DNA from: an uncultured Saprospiraceae bacterium | GTDB taxonomy: Bacteria; Bacteroidota; Bacteroidia; Chitinophagales; Saprospiraceae | Length of the DNA stretch: 64,000 nucleotides | Direction of reading: 5' to 3' | Assembly (NCBI GenBank): GCA_937951685.1 | Contig: CALFBG010000176.1 | Coordinates: 1-64,000 of the forward strand | Shown: positions 23,128 to 33,078 of the stretch, piece by piece | Numbering within the stretch: position 1 is the first letter of the stretch | Layout: every line of letters begins with the position of its first letter | Made by a program: the position numbers and the translations under genes | The notes under the pieces: generated by a model | The model's input: only the letters and a program-made list of their open reading frames with translations | Database searches by the model: none | Told to the model about the DNA's origin: nothing

Positions 23128-26100
23128 ATGAAAAAGATTTTACTTTATCCCATGGTGCTGCTTATCAGTACCGCGTTTTTGTTAGGTGTTGTAGCCTTTA
23201 CCGTTGAGGGGAAAACGGATCCTTTCTTAACAAAAATTACGCAACAAATTACGCGGTATTGGAAACATACCGCACCAGAAAAAGTCTACGTTCAATTGGA
23301 TCGTACTTTATACGTGCCAGGAGAAACCATTTGGTTGAACGCCTTTTTGCGAGCTGCTAAATCCTTGCGGGTGAGCGAGCGAAGCGAGGTACTTTACGTG
23401 GAGTTATACAGTCCTAAGTCGAGTCTGATCAAGCAATTGCGATTGCACACTAAGGATGGTGCGGCGCACGGAGACTTTCAATTATCAGCCAATGCGGTGG
23501 GCGGAAGGTATAAAATTAAAGCGTATACGCAGTGGCAAAAGAATGAGCAAACTTATTTTGAAAAAGAAATTCTCGTACAACGTTCGGTTTTACCTAATCT
23601 TAAAATGAAACTGGATTTTGATCGAAAAGCTTTTGGTCCAGGTGCGGAGGTGGTGGCAACACTCGATTTGCAAAGTCTAACGAATAAAGCTTTAGCCAAT
23701 CATCCCTTTGAATTTGTAGTGCAATTGCAAGGGAGTAATTATCTAAAAAAGAAAGCAAAAACCGACGCTTTAGGAAAAGCGAAGGTGACATTTAGCTTAC
23801 CGAAAGATTTAGCAACCACGGACGGCTTACTGAATGTACTAATCAATTATCAAGGTCAGCGAGAATCAATCGCTCGTTCTATTCCCATTGTGTTGAATGA
23901 TATTGATTTACAATTTTTACCAGAAGGCGGCCTGGGGATTGTAGGTATGCCAATAAAGTACGCTTTCAAAGCCATCAATGAATATGGGAAACCGGCAGAC
24001 GTGGAAGGTGTCATCTATGATCAAAATGATAAGTTTGTTAGCAGCTTTAAGAGCTTTCACCAAGGAATGGGAGCTGTTCAATTTACTCCCGCACATGGCG
24101 TTTCGTATTATGCGAAAATTACTCATCCCGCCAAACTGGAGAAAAAGTATTTATTACCAAGTTCGCTGCTGGAAGGTTACACCATTGCCGTAAATGAAAT
24201 CAAAAAATCGGGCGTTTACTTAAGTATTAATAATAAGGTGTTGAACGAATCTGTCTTCTTAATTGCTCAAGTAAATGGGCAGGTCGTCTTTAAAAAGCAG
24301 TATCAGCTTTCAGGGGTGCCCCAAAAAGTTTTTATTTCTACGCGCAAACTTCCGATTGGCGTGTTACAAATTACCTTATTTGATAGTCGGGAAAGCGTGC
24401 GAAGCGAGCGGCTAGTTTTTATTAATAAACAACAACAACTTAAGGTTGATATCCAAACGGATAAAAAAGAATATTTGCCTCGTGAAAAAGTCAAGATGAG
24501 TGTGCAGGTAAAAGATGCGAAAGGGAAACCCGTACAAGGAAGTTTTTCACTCGCCGTTTCCAACGATCAATTATTAAACTTTGCGGATGATAAACAAGCC
24601 ACTATTTTAGCCAGTTTACTCTTGGAAAGTGAGTTGAAGTCGAAGGTAGAAGAGGCTAACTTTTATTTTGATCCTACGGAAAAAAAGGCCGATCAGGCTT
24701 TAGATTATCTCATGCTGACGCAAGGCTGGCGTGGTACCATTTGGAAAGCGATCCAAAACGATAAGTTACCTAATTTTGCGTTTCAAAATGAATGTTTAGG
24801 ACTGAGTGGGAAAGTTACGGATCTTTACGGTAAGGTAATTCCGCAAGCCCGAGTAGCTTTGATTGAGCCATACTTATTGTCTCACAGTAAAGATAATGGC
24901 GCTTTTGATTTACCGCTAGAAGATTTTACCTACGAAAGCAGAATAGTCGTTTCTGCGGAGGGGTACGAAGCGCAATACCTCACGGTGACGGATTACACGA
25001 AACCAATGGAGGTTCGCTTAAAAAAAGCACCTTGGACAATCTTGGAGGAAGATGCCGAGGAGAATGTAATTAACGGGATTGTTATTGATCAAAGTACTGG
25101 CGAACCTTTGCCTTTTACTACGGTAACGATTAACCAGCGCGGCAAGATTTTAACTGGAGTGAATACTGATTTTGATGGAAAGTACAAACTTGATATTCCC
25201 GCTGGAGTAGTTGGGGATATTCAGTTGGAATATAAATATGTTGGTTTCAATACCACGAAGGTTCCACTCTGGCTAGGAACAGCAAATCGCCAATATTCCA
25301 TCCAAGTTCGCCTGCAAGAAGGAGTGACTAATTTGTCCGTAGGTGGTCCTTCTCCGCTTCGGTTAAGAAATACGGAAGATATCGTTTTGGCAGGAACGGT
25401 AAGCCAAGTGACGACTACGGATATGCTTGCGGAACTGTCAGAAGAAGAGCTACCAAGGTTGTTAAGCAGCAGCGAAGTGATCGAGGAAGATGAACTGGAA
25501 GCAGCCATTCCTCCCGTAACGGCGGTACCCGTAGCGGAAGAGCCAGAATTAGATCGGATGGAATCGCTCGTAGGAGAAACTAAGGCAAAGAAAGATCGGT
25601 CGATTGCTAAGCAACAAGCTGATCACAAAGCGTTAGCACCGCCACCACCACCCGTAATGGAAAAAGAGGAAATTTTCAGCGTTGTAGAAGAAATGCCTCG
25701 TTATTATTCGGCGGCTTGTGAATCTTTGCCCACACAAAAGGAACGCAACCAATGTGCGAATGAAAGTTTGAGCGGAGCGATTTATCAACGGTTAAAATAT
25801 CCCAAAGAAGCGCTGCTTAATGGCATCCAAGGAAGGGTAATCGTAAGCTTTACCGTCGACAAGGAAGGAAGGTTGAAAGACTTAACTTTAGTTCGGGATA
25901 TCGGTGGCGGTTGCGGGCAAGCAGCTTTGGAATCGGTACACGCAAATGTACACGAATTTGTACCGGGGAAACAAAGAGGAGTAGCGGTTCCGGTACGCTA
26001 TAATATGCCGATTAGCTTTAGGCTGGCACAAGGTTTAGAGGAAAGCAACAAGCATGTTCCGTTGCGATCCACACACCGAGCAAAAGCTAATACTAAGTTT

Positions 26101-28212
26101 TATTTGGCAAAGCAATATTACACGCCGAAGTATGAAAGCAATGCTCCCGTGGCAAAACGTACTGATTTCCGATCTACCATTTATTGGAATCCCAACTTAG
26201 TATTAGATAAGCAGGGACGAGCGGAGGTGGAGTTTCCAGCGTCGGATGAGATTACTGCCTTTCGAGCTACTTTGGAAGGACTGAGTCAGGAGGGAGGAAT
26301 TGGACAAGGAGTTGCTAAATTTTATACCCAAAGGCCTTTTAATGTCTTGGCTAAATTACCGACGCGAGTCTTGACGGGCGATCAATTGCAAATTCCAATT
26401 ACTTTGGTCAACAATACGGAGGAGGTTTTGAAAGGAGAATTACAAGTAACGAGTCCGAGTAATTTTGAGTTGTTAGATCGTAAGGCAAAACAGTCAGTGC
26501 GGTTAAAAGCCTTTGGGAAAAAGACTGTTTATTTGAAGTACTTGGTTAAGGATGAACTAGTTGATGGTGCCTTGGCTATTCGCTTTGCAGCGAATGGGGT
26601 AGCGGATGAATTGGCAAGTTCGATTCGTACGTATAGTCGAGGTTTTCCGGTGGTGAGCAATCAGGTAGGCACTCGACAGTTACAACAAGATTTTGAATTG
26701 GATTTGCAGCAAGCTATTGACGGTTCAGTAGCAGCGACCTTGAATTTTTTTCCTAGTGTTTTGAGTGAAGTGATTACGGGCATGGACAAAATGTTACGCC
26801 ATCCGGGTGGTTGTTTTGAACAAACTTCTAGCAGTAATTATCCTAACGTATTAGTTTTAAATTATTTGCGGAAATACAATTTGGCGGAAGCAGAAATAGA
26901 AACCAAAGCGAAGCAGTATTTACAAGTTGGTTACGCTCGACTAACGGGATTTGAAGCGAAAACGGGAGGCTTTGAATGGTACGGAAGAGATCCCGGACAC
27001 GAAGCTTTAACGGCATACGGTATCATGCAATTCGTTGATATGGCAAAGGTATTTAACGTAGATCCAAAAATGATTGAGCGAACTTCAAAATGGCTTTTGG
27101 GGCGCAGAGATGGCAAAGGCGGTTGGTTGTCGAATGGCAGCCACGGTTGGTATGTCAATAATGAAATTGGTGGTGCTTACGTGGTATGGGCTTTGTGTGA
27201 AGCGGGTTTCGGCGAAGCTTTGGCTATGGAGTTAAATCAATCTTACGCGGATGCTTTGAAAAGTGAGGATCCATACCTAATGGCTTTGATGGCTAATTCC
27301 TTGCAACGAGTAGGAGATGTTCGGGCGATGGATTTATTAGCAGATTTAATGACTCGACAAAATAAGGACGGCAGTTGGAAAGGGCAATCGCATTCGGGGA
27401 CGCGTTCGCGAGGGGACGCGTTGACTATTGAAACGACGGCGTTGGTTGCAATGGCGATGATGAATGCAAAAAAAACAGGGAATGTTTTGAATCAAGCGAT
27501 TCAGTTTATTACCAAGTCAAAAAACAATTATGGTTTTGGGAATACCCAGTCAACGATCTTGGCTTTGAAGGCTTTAATTCAATTTGCGGAGCTGAGTAAA
27601 CGCACAGCAGGTTCGGGAAAGATTGTGGTAAAAGTGAATGGCAAAAAAGTAAAACGTATTGTCTACGATCGGAGCCAAGCAGACGCTTTGAAAATTGACA
27701 ACTTAGCGCAATATCTAAAGCCAGGAAAGCAAACGGTATCGGTAGCATTTTTGGAAACGAAGGAACCGTTGGACTTAGAGCTTTCATTGAAATATACCAG
27801 TCGACAGCCCGCCTCCGACGCAGCGTGTCGACTAGGCTTAAGCACTAAATTGCAGCGCAAAAAAATCAAGATGGGCGAAACGGTTCGCTTCACTGGAACC
27901 CTGACGAACTTGACGAAGGAAGTGCTGGCTTCACCGATTGCCATGATTGGTATTCCGGCCGGATTGAGTGTACAAGCTTGGCAACTTAAGGAAATGCAAG
28001 AACGCCAAGAAATGGCTTTTTATGAAATTTTTGAAGACCAATTGGTTTTTTATTACGACGATTTAGCGGCGCAAGCGCAGCATACGATTCGCTTAGACTT
28101 GAAGGCCGATATTCCGGGGACGTACGAAGCGCCCGCCTCTAAAGTGTACGAGTATTATCAGAATGAATGGCAAGCGTGGAGTGAGCCGGAGGTTGTGGTG
28201 ATCCGGAAATAG
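23128..28212 (+). CDS. Alpha-2-macroglobulin family protein with embedded carboxypeptidase-regulatory and TonB-C domains
   Basis: A 1694-residue exported protein related to bacterial alpha-2-macroglobulins, which trap proteases by covalent thioester capture. A signal peptide or anchor spans about residues 1-28. An MG2-type domain begins near residue 50 (EKVYVQLDRTLYVPGETIW). A CarboxypepD_reg-like beta sandwich sits near 647-740, a Pro-rich linker near 838, and a TonB C-terminal domain near 884-970 (RLKYPKEALLNGIQGRVIVSFTV is its core). The macroglobulin core resumes at about 1013. The thioester motif GGCFEQ is intact, with Cys1229 and Gln1232, followed by an alpha-alpha toroid region. No pbpC, a frequent partner of such genes, is adjacent. 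Confidence 0.88.
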   Translation: MKKILLYPMVLLISTAFLLGVVAFTVEGKTDPFLTKITQQITRYWKHTAPEKVYVQLDRTLYVPGETIWLNAFLRAAKSLRVSERSEVLYVELYSPKSSLIKQLRLHTKDGAAHGDFQLSANAVGGRYKIKAYTQWQKNEQTYFEKEILVQRSVLPNLKMKLDFDRKAFGPGAEVVATLDLQSLTNKALANHPFEFVVQLQGSNYLKKKAKTDALGKAKVTFSLPKDLATTDGLLNVLINYQGQRESIARSIPIVLNDIDLQFLPEGGLGIVGMPIKYAFKAINEYGKPADVEGVIYDQNDKFVSSFKSFHQGMGAVQFTPAHGVSYYAKITHPAKLEKKYLLPSSLLEGYTIAVNEIKKSGVYLSINNKVLNESVFLIAQVNGQVVFKKQYQLSGVPQKVFISTRKLPIGVLQITLFDSRESVRSERLVFINKQQQLKVDIQTDKKEYLPREKVKMSVQVKDAKGKPVQGSFSLAVSNDQLLNFADDKQATILASLLLESELKSKVEEANFYFDPTEKKADQALDYLMLTQGWRGTIWKAIQNDKLPNFAFQNECLGLSGKVTDLYGKVIPQARVALIEPYLLSHSKDNGAFDLPLEDFTYESRIVVSAEGYEAQYLTVTDYTKPMEVRLKKAPWTILEEDAEENVINGIVIDQSTGEPLPFTTVTINQRGKILTGVNTDFDGKYKLDIPAGVVGDIQLEYKYVGFNTTKVPLWLGTANRQYSIQVRLQEGVTNLSVGGPSPLRLRNTEDIVLAGTVSQVTTTDMLAELSEEELPRLLSSSEVIEEDELEAAIPPVTAVPVAEEPELDRMESLVGETKAKKDRSIAKQQADHKALAPPPPPVMEKEEIFSVVEEMPRYYSAACESLPTQKERNQCANESLSGAIYQRLKYPKEALLNGIQGRVIVSFTVDKEGRLKDLTLVRDIGGGCGQAALESVHANVHEFVPGKQRGVAVPVRYNMPISFRLAQGLEESNKHVPLRSTHRAKANTKFYLAKQYYTPKYESNAPVAKRTDFRSTIYWNPNLVLDKQGRAEVEFPASDEITAFRATLEGLSQEGGIGQGVAKFYTQRPFNVLAKLPTRVLTGDQLQIPITLVNNTEEVLKGELQVTSPSNFELLDRKAKQSVRLKAFGKKTVYLKYLVKDELVDGALAIRFAANGVADELASSIRTYSRGFPVVSNQVGTRQLQQDFELDLQQAIDGSVAATLNFFPSVLSEVITGMDKMLRHPGGCFEQTSSSNYPNVLVLNYLRKYNLAEAEIETKAKQYLQVGYARLTGFEAKTGGFEWYGRDPGHEALTAYGIMQFVDMAKVFNVDPKMIERTSKWLLGRRDGKGGWLSNGSHGWYVNNEIGGAYVVWALCEAGFGEALAMELNQSYADALKSEDPYLMALMANSLQRVGDVRAMDLLADLMTRQNKDGSWKGQSHSGTRSRGDALTIETTALVAMAMMNAKKTGNVLNQAIQFITKSKNNYGFGNTQSTILALKALIQFAELSKRTAGSGKIVVKVNGKKVKRIVYDRSQADALKIDNLAQYLKPGKQTVSVAFLETKEPLDLELSLKYTSRQPASDAACRLGLSTKLQRKKIKMGETVRFTGTLTNLTKEVLASPIAMIGIPAGLSVQAWQLKEMQERQEMAFYEIFEDQLVFYYDDLAAQAQHTIRLDLKADIPGTYEAPASKVYEYYQNEWQAWSEPEVVVIRK

Positions 28213-28314: not shown

Positions 28315-28470
28315 ATGAAATGTAAAAATATGAAAGACACAATTCGAAATTTTGCGCAGCACTTAGGAATGGATCAGCTAGTTTCATCGGATCAGTCATT
28401 AAGTTTACGCGGTGGGAATATTGTGCAAGGAGGTTCCAGTTTTATTGTTGATGATATAAATGGGATTTAG
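28315..28470 (+). CDS. Small peptide with double-glycine leader motif (RiPP/bacteriocin-precursor-like)
   Basis: A 51-residue reading frame, 102 bases downstream of the macroglobulin gene on the same strand. The N-terminal part is a charged, helical leader; residues 29-34 read LSLRGG, matching the L-x-GG cleavage motif of Bacteroidota natural-product and bacteriocin-like precursors; the 17 residues after GG are Gly/Ser/Ile/Asp-rich with no cysteine. An alternative start is Met6 at 28330. No peptidase-containing ABC transporter or modifying enzyme is within the window. The start has an AT-rich upstream region (TTTTTTATAACCT), usual for this phylum. The match to a GG-leader family is by motif only. 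Confidence 0.5.
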   Translation: MKCKNMKDTIRNFAQHLGMDQLVSSDQSLSLRGGNIVQGGSSFIVDDINGI

Positions 28471-28493
28471 TTTGATCTAATAATATTTGAAAG

Positions 28494-28531
28494 TAACTTT
28501 GTGGGTAGTATCCAACTATTCCACAAAGTTA
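28494..28531. terminator. Hairpin between convergent genes
   Basis: TAACTTTGTGG (28494-28504) pairs perfectly with CCACAAAGTTA (28521-28531), ending at the stop of the minus-strand gene. T-runs are weak on both sides, so it is a moderate bidirectional terminator candidate. Confidence 0.5.
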
Positions 28532-29950
28532 TTATTCAAGCTCTGCAATTTTCTCTTCTAGCCATTTTCTGTCTCCGGCGATCGGTTTACTGTTGAGTTC
28601 TTGTTTCAGTTTTTCGATTGCTTTTTTATCTCTAGGGCCAGTTTTGGTCAGTAACTTTAAAAAACTAATTAAATTTAAATAATTTGTTCTTCGATTGGTA
28701 GGAATATCTTTATGCCGATTGAGGTACGTTCTAAAACTCTCCATTAAAGAATAGAGCGCTTCAATTTCTTCTGTATCGTAGTAAATAACTAGTAGCATCG
28801 CTTTTGACGAAAGGTTGTATGAAAAGTCATCGTATTCAACCGTTTGAAGTAAAGACACAACCTCTCGGTGCTTTTTTTGATAAAAATATAATCGGGCTAA
28901 ATTAAAAGTTACGGCATTTTCTCTTTGCACCTCTGGCAAAAGCTTCTGATAGTTCTTAATGAAGTTTTCGGTCCATTCATATTCTTCTAGTCTCAAAGCA
29001 ATTAATACTGTATTCTGAAACTTCCAAGGGGAGAGATAACCATTCTCAATGAGAATATCTGTTTCTAGAAGTTCATCGTAAAAGTCAAGATATTCCTTCA
29101 AGAATTTTGATTGTCCTGAGTTAATTTTTCGAATGCAATAATTTAAAGCTGAAGTATAAATAAATTGCGCTTCAATAATCGGGAATTGCTTGCCATATTT
29201 TTCTAGTAAAGATTTTAATTTGTAATAATGTTCTTGCTTATTATTCTCTAGTTGTGTCAGAACGATTTGCGAATAAATCGCAATAGGAGGTATTTCTTCA
29301 AAACCTGGTGCTTGAATATGTTCCATAATCTCATCAATTAAGAGCACTTTATAATCGTGCGAGATAATATTTTGTCGACTTAGAATGGTGCAATAGGTTC
29401 TTAATTTTTCCGATAGGTAAAAATGATCTAAATTATTGATAATATCTTCGATATTGGACTTACTGGCCCGCTTCATCTCAAAATCGGTCAATTCATAGTA
29501 ATTATTCTCAATCAGGTACTGATCCAGATAAAACTTGGAATTGCGATAATATTGTCGTTCGGCGGTTCTACGAGCAGCAGTCATGGTCGTATTATAGAGT
29601 TTGGTCAGTTTTTTTCTACCAACGGCTTTAATCAGGTTGGTAGCTTCTTTAATTGGATTTTCTTCGTAGACCTGCTGCGCCAGAAATTTTTCTACCAATC
29701 GTAACAAATCAGAACAGGCTTTCCGAAAGCGCACATCATCAAAGGCTTGCTTCGGGTGTAATTTTTTCCAAAATGTTTCTTTACTTAACTCTTCTGTTTT
29801 CTCTTTGTTAATTTGCTTAATAAATATTTCGAATAGCTTGATGAGCGTATTACTTTTATTAAAATAAGGAGAAGACAAAAATTTGCGCAAACGATTTTGT
29901 TCGTAACGGTCGAGAAAACTAAGAATGGAGTATAATTTATTATTCTGCAT
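28532..29950 (-). CDS. Uncharacterised all-helical protein
   Basis: I do not recognise a named family. The frame opens at a TTG (29959), but the ATG at 29950 gives a better start (MQNNKLYSILSFLDRYEQNR) and 472 residues. The protein is rich in Lys, Glu, Leu and aromatic residues, lacks a signal peptide and membrane spans, and looks like consecutive helical hairpins of TPR/HEAT character. The opening (LSFLDRYEQNRLRKFLSSPYFNKSNTLIKLFEIF) resembles a group of roughly 480-residue proteins that I associate with Saprospiria-type genomes, though I cannot verify this here. The very AT-rich DNA upstream differs from the surrounding housekeeping genes. Confidence 0.6.
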   Translation of the reverse strand: MQNNKLYSILSFLDRYEQNRLRKFLSSPYFNKSNTLIKLFEIFIKQINKEKTEELSKETFWKKLHPKQAFDDVRFRKACSDLLRLVEKFLAQQVYEENPIKEATNLIKAVGRKKLTKLYNTTMTAARRTAERQYYRNSKFYLDQYLIENNYYELTDFEMKRASKSNIEDIINNLDHFYLSEKLRTYCTILSRQNIISHDYKVLLIDEIMEHIQAPGFEEIPPIAIYSQIVLTQLENNKQEHYYKLKSLLEKYGKQFPIIEAQFIYTSALNYCIRKINSGQSKFLKEYLDFYDELLETDILIENGYLSPWKFQNTVLIALRLEEYEWTENFIKNYQKLLPEVQRENAVTFNLARLYFYQKKHREVVSLLQTVEYDDFSYNLSSKAMLLVIYYDTEEIEALYSLMESFRTYLNRHKDIPTNRRTNYLNLISFLKLLTKTGPRDKKAIEKLKQELNSKPIAGDRKWLEEKIAELE

Positions 29951-30558
29951 GTACGGCAAGCGTTTGTAGAAATTTTTCTTGAAAATGAGGCTAATTGCAG
30001 GGTATTGTAAAGTTTTAGTTAAAACAGCTTCGTAATAAAATCTAGCTATAATTAAATAAAATCTAAATATTTCCTTATATTAGCCTTTAAGTTTAATTGT
30101 GAAAATATTTAATTTGTTCTTTTGTCTTGATACAAATTATTAAAATTTCGGACAATTCAAAAACTTAGTTTCACAAAGTATTAGAGAAAAACTACCCTAA
30201 AAGATGTATTTTTCTGATATTTAACTAGCTATATAGGGCAAATATTTTTTATATTTAATAAATAAATATAATATTGTAGATAAATTGTCCTTGAAACCGA
30301 TATATTTTCCATGCAAATTGCTAGTAAATAGCAAAATCCGATGAAAAGCTTTTCTTTTTGAGAAAAGTAAAAAACGAATGTTAATAGAAAAATTTTGTTG
30401 TTTTTGTTTTTAAAACTTACAAAGTTAGCCAAAACAAAGCTTACAAACAGAGAACAAACCTAAAACCCAATAACTATGGGCGTACTCTGATTTGTTTATT
30501 CAACCTAATTTTTTTATTGGATCTACTTTATGTAGATTTTAAACATGATAAACCCAAG
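29951..30558. other. AT-rich intergenic region between divergent genes
   Basis: About 600 bases, strongly AT-rich (especially 30020-30280), with no convincing gene. A minus-strand promoter-like pair lies at 30420-30447: CAAAGTTA at 30420-30427 reads TAACTTTG on the minus strand, with TTTG 16 bases upstream (CAAA at 30444-30447). If used, it would give the helical-protein gene a leader of over 400 bases, or make a separate RNA. Confidence 0.4.
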
Positions 30559-33078
30559 ATGATGAATATATCTTTACCTAACCTAAAAAAGCTGATCTTG
30601 TATCTGTCGATACTGATGCTCCCTGCATCTATGTTTGGACAGGAGTTTGAATCCATTCAGCTTACGATGAACGAAAGTTTGACGTATCCTTTTTATTCCG
30701 TTAATGCACCTAATATTACGACGCCACCGAGCCACGGTTTTGCCTCTTTGGGTGGCCCAAATCCAAATTTCGGAAATTTCGGGAATAATATTTTAGTTTA
30801 CCAACCAGATGTAGATTTTCAAGGAATAGATTCTATACAAATGAATTATTGGGCTTTTGACAACTCGGTTGTCCAATTGACCCACAAAATTATCGAAATA
30901 CGAGTATCTGCTTCCGTTGTACAGGCAGAAGATGACTTTGTTACGACCAATATTAATACTCCCGTTACCATTGATGTTTTAGGAAATGATTATTCCAGTA
31001 CTGGAGCGATTGATTTGACGAGTATTATGGTGGTCAATAACGGAACTGCCGTTGTCAACCCCGATAATGTTTCTATTGATTTTACGCCTAACCCCGGATA
31101 CGAAGGGATGGCGCAATTTAATTATACGACTTGCGATTCTCTTGGGACTTGTGACGCTGCTGTTGTTACGGTTTTCGTTCAGAATGATAATGTAGCTACG
31201 AATGACACGGTTTATTTAACCACACCGAAAAATACCCCAATCAGTGTATTGGTACCTTTACAACAAGGATATTTAATCGGATATAATCCTGATCATGGTG
31301 CGGTCAATTACGCCAACGCAGGAACTTTAGAATACACGCCAGACTTGGACTACGTTGGCATGGATAATTTTACAGTTGTTTATAATACAATTGATCCTAA
31401 TGCACCAACTTCTGCGCTTACGGTAATGATTACCGTTTTCGATGCACCCGATCCTAATACATTCGCTTTTGATGACTATGCTTTTACCGCTATCGGTGAA
31501 TCAGTTGATGTAGACGTTACGTTGAATGATTTTGGAGATCCATTATTCGTAAATCCTAACCTTTTAGAGCAACCTGCTTTCGGTACGGTTACTTATTTAG
31601 GCGATGGTGTATTTAGCTATGATCCAGAAGATTACGAAGGCGGAGTCGTTAAATTTCGATATAAAGTATCTACTTTATTTGGATTATTTGAATATGCAGA
31701 TGTCTTTATTGCCGTTGGAAATCATAATCCAAATCCAGAAACGTTTAACCTGGTAACGCTTAAAAATACACCTTTAATCGTTAATTATGACGTACCGATT
31801 GATTTCGATTTCGTTGTAACGGACGATGCCGGAGGAAAGGTAAATTACTATCCAGGATATACTTCTACTACTATTAATGGTCAAACCGTTACGGGGACGA
31901 ACCTGATTGTATATACACCTGAGGAAGACTTTATTGGCTATGATGATTTCGAATTAAATTATTGTGTAGGAAGTACCTGTACAACGGTTAAAATCGAAGT
32001 CCACATCAAGGAAGTTTATCCGCAGCCTTTATTCTGTATTGATGATTGCGTTTGGGCAGGTGATGCCAATTACGATGGCGTGGTCGATATGCGAGATTTA
32101 TTGCCACTGGGTTATTGTGTGGGTATCGCAGGCGTCGAAAGACCGCAAGCGAGCTTAGAATGGTACGGACAATATTGTGAAGATTGGGATAATGGTTTTG
32201 AAGTTAGTGATTCTGACTTGAAGCACATTGACACCAATGGAGACGGTTTAATCTCTGCGGCGGATACGGCAGCGCTATTATCGTCTTACACTAGATTGCA
32301 TACATTAACACCAGATCAAGAATATTACGTCGCAAACCTTCCTTTATATCTGGTTCCTCGGAATCCGAATATTGTACCAGGGGATTTATTAGTGATGGAT
32401 ATTGTATTGGGGACGGAAGCAACGCCGGCCTTTGATATGCATGGTTTTACTTTTTCTTTCAGATATAATAGTAGTGTGGTCGAGGAAGGAACGTTAGAGA
32501 TTGATTTTCTCAATCAAAACTGGATGTCCTACAATTCTCCCATGTTAGGCTTAACGAAAAAACCTTTTAGCAATATTAATAAAATTGATGTTGGATATAC
32601 GAGAACTTCCGGTGTTTCTGTGAGTGGCTTTGGTTCCGTAGGAACAGTGAAGTTCATCGTGGATGATGCTGTTGATGGTTTCCGCCCAGACCAAGATCGA
32701 AAACTACGCATCGACTTAGGAGACGCCTTATACTTAACGCCTTCTGGTCAATACATTGCGCTTACTACGAAAAACTTAGAGCTTACGATTCAGGAAGCAC
32801 CTAATTATGATAATGGCATTGATCCATCTTTATTGATTGCTTATCCTAATCCTGCACAAGACTTTTTGAATCTACATTTGAATGGTACCGTTCCAATGGA
32901 ACAGATTCTGATGTATAACCTTAATGGTCAAGTGATATACAACTCTGGTAATAAGGTAGATCTCAAGAAAACAGCAATTGATGTGACGAACATTGCCAAC
33001 GGTCTTTACGTTGTAGAAGTAATCACCGAAGAAGGTGTGATTACCAAGAAAGTTGAAGTAATGAAGTTTAAAAACTAA
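30559..33078 (+). CDS. T9SS-exported multidomain protein with dockerin-like and cohesin-like segments
   Basis: An 839-residue secreted protein. The frame is open from 30517, but the ATG at 30559 begins a good signal peptide (KKLILYLSILMLPASMFGQ). Four or five Ig/cadherin-like beta domains follow (VLGNDYS, TPNPGYEG and similar turns). Residues about 499-581 carry two calcium-loop motifs, GDANYDGVVDMRDLLPLGYC and IDTNGDGLISAADTAALL, as in type I dockerins. Residues about 595-719 look like a cohesin-type domain. The last 80 residues form a T9SS sorting domain (YPNPAQDFLNLHLNG, GQVIYNSGNKV, LYVVEVI). It is probably anchored at the outer surface. The ligand is unknown. Confidence 0.85.
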   Translation: MMNISLPNLKKLILYLSILMLPASMFGQEFESIQLTMNESLTYPFYSVNAPNITTPPSHGFASLGGPNPNFGNFGNNILVYQPDVDFQGIDSIQMNYWAFDNSVVQLTHKIIEIRVSASVVQAEDDFVTTNINTPVTIDVLGNDYSSTGAIDLTSIMVVNNGTAVVNPDNVSIDFTPNPGYEGMAQFNYTTCDSLGTCDAAVVTVFVQNDNVATNDTVYLTTPKNTPISVLVPLQQGYLIGYNPDHGAVNYANAGTLEYTPDLDYVGMDNFTVVYNTIDPNAPTSALTVMITVFDAPDPNTFAFDDYAFTAIGESVDVDVTLNDFGDPLFVNPNLLEQPAFGTVTYLGDGVFSYDPEDYEGGVVKFRYKVSTLFGLFEYADVFIAVGNHNPNPETFNLVTLKNTPLIVNYDVPIDFDFVVTDDAGGKVNYYPGYTSTTINGQTVTGTNLIVYTPEEDFIGYDDFELNYCVGSTCTTVKIEVHIKEVYPQPLFCIDDCVWAGDANYDGVVDMRDLLPLGYCVGIAGVERPQASLEWYGQYCEDWDNGFEVSDSDLKHIDTNGDGLISAADTAALLSSYTRLHTLTPDQEYYVANLPLYLVPRNPNIVPGDLLVMDIVLGTEATPAFDMHGFTFSFRYNSSVVEEGTLEIDFLNQNWMSYNSPMLGLTKKPFSNINKIDVGYTRTSGVSVSGFGSVGTVKFIVDDAVDGFRPDQDRKLRIDLGDALYLTPSGQYIALTTKNLELTIQEAPNYDNGIDPSLLIAYPNPAQDFLNLHLNGTVPMEQILMYNLNGQVIYNSGNKVDLKKTAIDVTNIANGLYVVEVITEEGVITKKVEVMKFKN

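Follow-up and report, generated by a model that had tools for sequence, protein, structure and literature searches.

A short open reading frame in a 64,000-nucleotide stretch of DNA from an uncultured Saprospiraceae bacterium (the whole stretch is called here the window) raises the question of whether it encodes an exported peptide and, if so, with which genes that peptide belongs. The 51-codon frame reported by an earlier, sequence-only reading is found exactly at 28315–28470 on the forward strand, where the motif LSLRGG precedes a 17-residue tail, NIVQGGSSFIVDDINGI; the full translation is MKCKNMKDTIRNFAQHLGMDQLVSSDQSLSLRGGNIVQGGSSFIVDDINGI. The frame list gives a start at 28315 and a product of 51 residues, but the ATG at 28330 (MKDTIRNF...) is the likelier start judged by the family alignment, because most members of the family described below open with MK 20–30 residues before the GG. 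The resulting double-glycine precursor of 46 residues (28330–28470, forward strand), delineated with a leave-window-out family profile and the family alignment, comprises a 29-residue leader, MKDTIRNFAQHLGMDQLVSSDQSLSLRGG (28330–28416), which fits the family leader pattern, and a 17-residue core (28417–28467), cleavage by a C39 peptidase being presumed to occur after the GG. Taken alone, this frame is no more remarkable than chance. Shuffling of the window's intergenic DNA leads to an expectation of 0.36 comparable L-x-GG frames, and the codon score of the frame is 0.016, with real genes at 0.127 ± 0.086 and out-of-frame ORFs at −0.106 ± 0.089. Single-sequence searches with the window peptide over this genome, related genomes and public ones returned noise only, apart from one match (L049), and revealed no close homologue of the window peptide in 398 Saprospiraceae genomes.

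The L049 match, one of the weak tblastn hits to the window peptide in these 398 genomes, is a 44-residue double-glycine frame convergent to a gene for 492 residues that lies 12 bp away and is distantly paralogous (22% identity, E value of 9e-16) to the gene next to the window peptide at 28532–29959. A second case (L078) was met among orthologues of the latter gene, whose product has 475 residues, and 80 public orthologue loci yielded further peptides at L102, L118 (Flavilitoribacter nigricans, two copies), L119, L133 (frame-broken, from a metagenome assembly), L173 and L159, the last of which sits on the other side of its locus, behind the divergent surface gene. A family profile built from ten of these peptides and searched over Saprospiraceae gave matches in 86 of 398 genomes, belonging to 42 of 112 genera, with up to 17 in a single genome (E value of 0.05 or below in each case).

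The members of this family share the aligned leader pattern MK..[ST][LI]..F....[LI]...Q....KGG. The precursors are mostly 37–55 residues long and their cores mostly 9–24, with a composition rich in Ile and Val (30%, of which 21.5% Ile) and in Asp and Glu (26%, of which 20% Asp) and poor in Lys and Arg (1.5%). Values of dN/dS of 0.08–0.33 in four related pairs indicate coding constraint. Judged by their sequences, these double-glycine precursors of Saprospiraceae constitute an unnamed and undescribed family. A literature search that took in few subscription papers and no preprints found such a peptide/TPR pair in no title or abstract. When the window sequence is left out and the profile is made from the other 39 aligned peptides, the window frame ranks first among 1,878 window frames, with an E value of 0.013 against 2 for the runner-up. 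This rank, together with a convergent neighbour of the same gene family as at the other loci, raises the frame above chance. The window peptide gene is almost certainly real, and sequence comparison places it in the family as a divergent but credible member.

The leaders of the window peptide (...QSLSLRGG) and of the family (...[IVL]KGG) are charged and show GG at positions −2/−1 and a hydrophobic residue at −4, the features looked for in substrates of C39-containing (PCAT) exporters. Family leaders are devoid of a Sec signal sequence, the only exception being the Fn3 variant in L113. Consistent with the earlier expectation of a GG-peptidase transporter somewhere in the genome, five PF03412 matches lie above cut-off, four of them strong C39-ABC loci and one weaker. 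They are located on contigs C99, C289, C259, C92 and C333 and the window peptide on contig C176, so that the exporter is not adjacent. All 33 peptide-positive genomes tested have C39, as do 11 of the 22 peptide-negative ones, a set not matched for size. Two of the C39 loci in this genome have ordinary double-glycine precursors alongside, and frames of this kind near its C39 loci were rejected as family members, being ordinary precursors with different cores. One such locus, L019 on contig C99, has a C39-ABC gene flanked by three different precursors, two of which have Cys-containing cores, and is likely a separate export locus. Elsewhere in the phylum, the search met double-glycine arrays in f25, another family of the same class; their cores are unrelated and they have no TPR partner. 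Loci L282–L287 and L290 of f25 each carry three to five precursors in tandem, with leaders that are nearly identical and cores of GNGKGS or GGNGN type.

While the double-glycine precursor with a distant exporter stands, the sequence-only reading had also called the peptide an orphan and allowed for coexpression with the alpha-2-macroglobulin gene, and neither of these points is supported. The conserved partner is the convergent gene for a 475-residue TPR-like protein at 28532–29959 on the reverse strand, which ends 61 bp from the peptide gene. Among 67 of the better-scoring peptide loci from other genomes, found by the peptide profile alone, 47 have a gene of the 475-residue family convergent to the peptide, the 3′ ends of the paired genes being −10 to 369 bp apart and mostly less than 100 bp; as a genome holds 14–26 or more members of the family, chance would account for a few tenths of a locus at most. 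About seven of the 67 loci had provided seeds for the profile, and the picture is the same without them. At the other 20 the partner is absent from the convergent spot, in some owing to contig ends. A control over 766 kb around 80 orthologous 475-residue genes gave eight profile matches, seven at the 3′ convergent spot and the eighth (L159) behind the divergent surface gene, and none elsewhere. A conserved pairing of the peptide with the TPR family is near certain. Most 475-residue paralogues have no adjacent peptide, including 13 of the 14 in this genome, so ligands other than the peptide, or in addition to it, must exist for the TPR family.

Between the two convergent genes of the window, a strong hairpin at 28486–28540 (RNA fold of −23.6 kcal/mol, z of −5.9 on the forward and −4.05 on the reverse strand) is probably a terminator that they share; a consensus terminator scan found none. 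The alpha-2-macroglobulin gene (23128–28212, forward strand, 1,694 residues) is an incidental neighbour. Macroglobulin was seen at none of the other peptide loci examined, and coexpression with it was dropped as a defining link. Its product has an unusual architecture of its own, in which a TonB C-terminal domain and carboxypeptidase-regulatory-like repeats lie between the MG2 and A2M/TED parts.

Several loci show other arrangements. Two related-looking proteins of about 520 residues without Pfam matches (L235, 3859–5400; L258, 995–2593) lie near double-glycine peptides that have no 475-residue partner, and are possibly a second partner family. Some unpaired peptides (L276, 3049–3957; L206 and L216) abut a convergent LytTR response regulator or a two-component propeller histidine kinase. 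At L208 (3–2513), a TPR protein of about 730 residues directly precedes one peptide/TPR pair and contains HATHG...SSCESG motifs that look like those of a CHAT protease.

The gene at 28532–29959 has a listed TTG start, and its orthologues start at an ATG equivalent to 29950. This genome holds 14 members of its family, and relatives hold up to at least 26. The family is present in 54 of the 61 genomes searched, and its members in relatives mostly have 465–500 residues. The AlphaFold model of the window protein is all-helical (pLDDT of 88.7, pTM of 0.76). Comparison of the family profile with designed TPR proteins locates a TPR motif at residues 331–370 (E value of 3.2e-18), and several members show weak matches to Pfam TPR_2, ANAPC3 and TPR_1. 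A Foldseek search with the whole model retrieves TPR proteins in general, none below an E value of 0.001, with NprR at about 0.01 among them; the window protein has no NCBIfam match and matches no receptor family in Pfam. The first 110 or so residues, folded alone, reach a pLDDT of 90. The best-probability fold match of this N-terminal domain is the CadC winged helix (probability of 0.57, but E value of 5.2). Pfam gave nothing significant for the domain, nor did hhalign against an OmpR-type profile, in a comparison with a thin profile (four sequences, one row out of frame). DNA binding by the N-terminal domain is thus no more than a hypothesis.

On its 5′ side the TPR gene is divergent from a gene for a surface protein of about 840 residues (30517–33078, forward strand), in which Pfam recognizes three Big_9/cadherin-like repeats, a dockerin, a cohesin-like module and a T9SS sorting domain. 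Nearly every ortholog locus has a gene for about 840 residues in this divergent position. Most of the TPR paralogues in this genome that have an intact 5′ flank are likewise divergent from T9SS-type secreted proteins, and at some other peptide pairs a LytTR or AraC regulator, a sigma factor or a small Mor-like HTH protein is divergent to the TPR gene. A TPR gene divergent from a candidate target has the arrangement expected of a regulator. A recurrent protein of about 100 residues is found at the divergent, 5′ side of the TPR gene in L217, L224, L261, L264, L266 and L277; it ends in ...L(S/A)DR[FY]N[LI]S.R[ST][IV]W.I[LI]K and is weakly Mor-like (HTH, E value of 0.029), with no Pfam family above cut-off.

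The reading that we favour, and to which we give about an even chance, is that the peptide and the TPR protein are a signal/receptor pair, the peptide being exported by C39 and the adjacent TPR protein being its cognate partner. The double-glycine leader of the precursor would be recognized and cut by a C39-containing ABC exporter whose gene lies elsewhere, with release of an acidic, Ile/Asp-rich core; it is the leader type and the presence of exporters that point to such cleavage. The convergent 475-residue protein would be an intracellular partner specific to the peptide, a putative binding suggested by the TPR being a peptide-binding fold and by the expansion of matched pairs. In its peptide-bound form, the TPR protein would regulate the gene divergent to it, which in the ortholog group of the window encodes the T9SS surface protein and at some other pairs a small transcription regulator. 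The pairing and the divergent arrangement are features of the genomes themselves, from which we infer peptide binding and gene regulation.

Signalling by short peptides that act on cytoplasmic TPR receptors has been described mainly in Gram-positive bacteria. RRNPP pairs (Rap-Phr, Rgg-SHP, PlcR-PapR, NprR-NprX and AimR) belong to Firmicutes, export their propeptides by Sec or PptAB, take the mature peptide back up for binding by the TPRs and, in most subfamilies, have an N-terminal helix-turn-helix. They are delimited by a small propeptide of 10–100 residues, a TPR receptor of 250–500 residues and genes that are direct neighbours (PMC10075063). The Saprospiraceae pair agrees in propeptide size, receptor length, TPR fold and adjacency (47 of 67 loci), and also in the many paralogous pairs per genome and the short hydrophobic-acidic cores. 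It differs in occurring in Bacteroidota, in a double-glycine leader for a C39 exporter in place of Sec or PptAB export, in a convergent orientation almost throughout, in the lack of homology to RRNPP receptors and in a DNA-binding domain that is hypothetical only. The short hydrophobic-acidic cores of the Saprospiraceae peptides recall SHP pheromones. The latter carry an Asp or a Glu (PMC7018657). By analogy, it is an even call that the Saprospiraceae pair works like an RRNPP pair, yet by sequence and export route it stands outside RRNPP. Double-glycine pheromones of the ComC/CSP type are also short peptides exported in this way, and LytTR regulators occur at a few of the Saprospiraceae loci; however, the Saprospiraceae partner is a soluble TPR-like protein, there is no constant membrane histidine kinase, and the cores are acidic.

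What such a core might resemble is indicated by its C-terminus. In the window this is SFIVDDINGI, which matches both the family tail and a strand, GFGSVGTVKFIVDDAVDGFRP (32626–32688, forward strand), that the neighbouring surface protein has in its cohesin-like module; this is the segment resembled by cores of the ortholog group. All 67 complete surface-protein partners of about 840 residues share the strand as G[FYH]G.[IV]G..F[IV][IV].[DE]D[IVL].G with local variation, which includes the conserved stretch F-[IV]-[IV]-x-[DE]-D-[IVL]-x-G. On a PSSM built from 60 of these partners alone, without peptides, 12 of 14 ortholog-group cores score 14.8–28.7 bits, the window core 14.8. Shuffled ortholog-group cores reach 14.8 bits in 0.18% of cases and the shuffled window core in 39 of 20,000, and none of 54,435 other 10-mers from the partner proteins reaches even 10 bits. 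The two cores that fail are those of L118b and L119 (IIVDIIGP type). Cores at paralogous pairs average 0.3 bits, near background, and the resemblance therefore belongs to the window's ortholog group. In L113 and L123, the convergent spot is taken by a fibronectin-III protein with this tail at its C-terminus (the one of L113 with a Sec signal, that of L123 frame-broken), so that the C-terminal tail, not the export route, is what persists. The papers searched hold no description of peptide copies of a cohesin strand.

These observations bear on an alternative that we regard as possible but doubtful, in which the exported core acts outside the cell as a strand mimic on assembly of the neighbouring T9SS surface protein, by complementing a strand or competing at a contact of cohesin-dockerin type, and the TPR protein does no more than regulate the locus. 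The strand shared by the 67 partners, the PSSM scores of the cores and the two Fn3 proteins with the same tail all speak for it, and as in cohesin-dockerin systems the resembled strand belongs to a cohesin-like module, and the protein in question carries a dockerin as well. Yet the similarity of this module to a solved cohesin is weak (ScaC cohesin, E value of 0.075), the cores of paralogous pairs score near background, and the paralogous pairs checked have regulators or other genes replacing the surface protein. The resemblance also admits a signalling interpretation, itself tentative and rather unlikely, in which the peptide is a free copy of a strand of the surface protein, whose gene is two genes away, and the TPR protein encoded between the two reads this motif, from the peptide and/or from unexported surface protein, and sets expression of the surface protein.

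It is improbable that the peptide is a bacteriocin or, as the sequence-only reading had allowed, a RiPP precursor, with the TPR protein as an immunity or maturation factor. Double-glycine leaders with C39 exporters are the usual route of bacteriocins, and 12 of 40 leaders weakly resemble TIGR04149 (best E value of 8.4e-6), a family of radical-SAM RiPP precursors, and five resemble Bacteroid_pep or ComC. The general leader type ending in KGG is indeed common to TIGR04149 and PF14406 (Bacteroid_pep) precursors of Bacteroidota. Unlike these, the Saprospiraceae peptides fall below the curated cut-off (the window peptide has no TIGR04149 match, and its genome none over cut-off), have another core and are in fixed pairing with a TPR gene; no radical-SAM or other RiPP modification enzyme was recognized among the annotated neighbours at the loci examined. 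Moreover, the short length and the acidity of the cores are out of keeping with known class II bacteriocins, and the large TPR protein that accompanies them has paralogues that mostly lack any peptide.

TPR proteins are often adaptors, and most paralogues with an intact 5′ flank in this genome are divergent from T9SS-secreted proteins, as would suit a role as chaperone or adaptor, with binding of the precursor or of the surface protein ahead of export, rather than a role as regulator. This too is an unlikely explanation, given divergent and convergent gene orientations that form no operon and the transcription regulators adjoining some other pairs. That the window frame is a spurious intergenic ORF, for which the chance expectation, the equivocal codon score and the lack of a close orthologue in single-sequence searches might speak, is highly improbable in the face of its leave-one-out rank, a conserved partner at conserved distance and orientation, and a core that matches the partner's strand.

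Under the favoured reading of a signal/receptor pair, the large unannotated family of double-glycine peptides with their TPR proteins would make Saprospiraceae a source of matched candidates for signal and receptor, some of them in cultured species such as Flavilitoribacter nigricans DSM 23189. That the core matches a strand of the T9SS surface protein is an unusual and tangible clue to what is recognized. If the TPR protein does read a free copy of that strand, the expanded paralogous pairs would represent a peptide-signalling repertoire in a Gram-negative phylum. The pairing with the peptide gives a handle on the many unnamed paralogues of about 475 residues in Saprospiraceae genomes.
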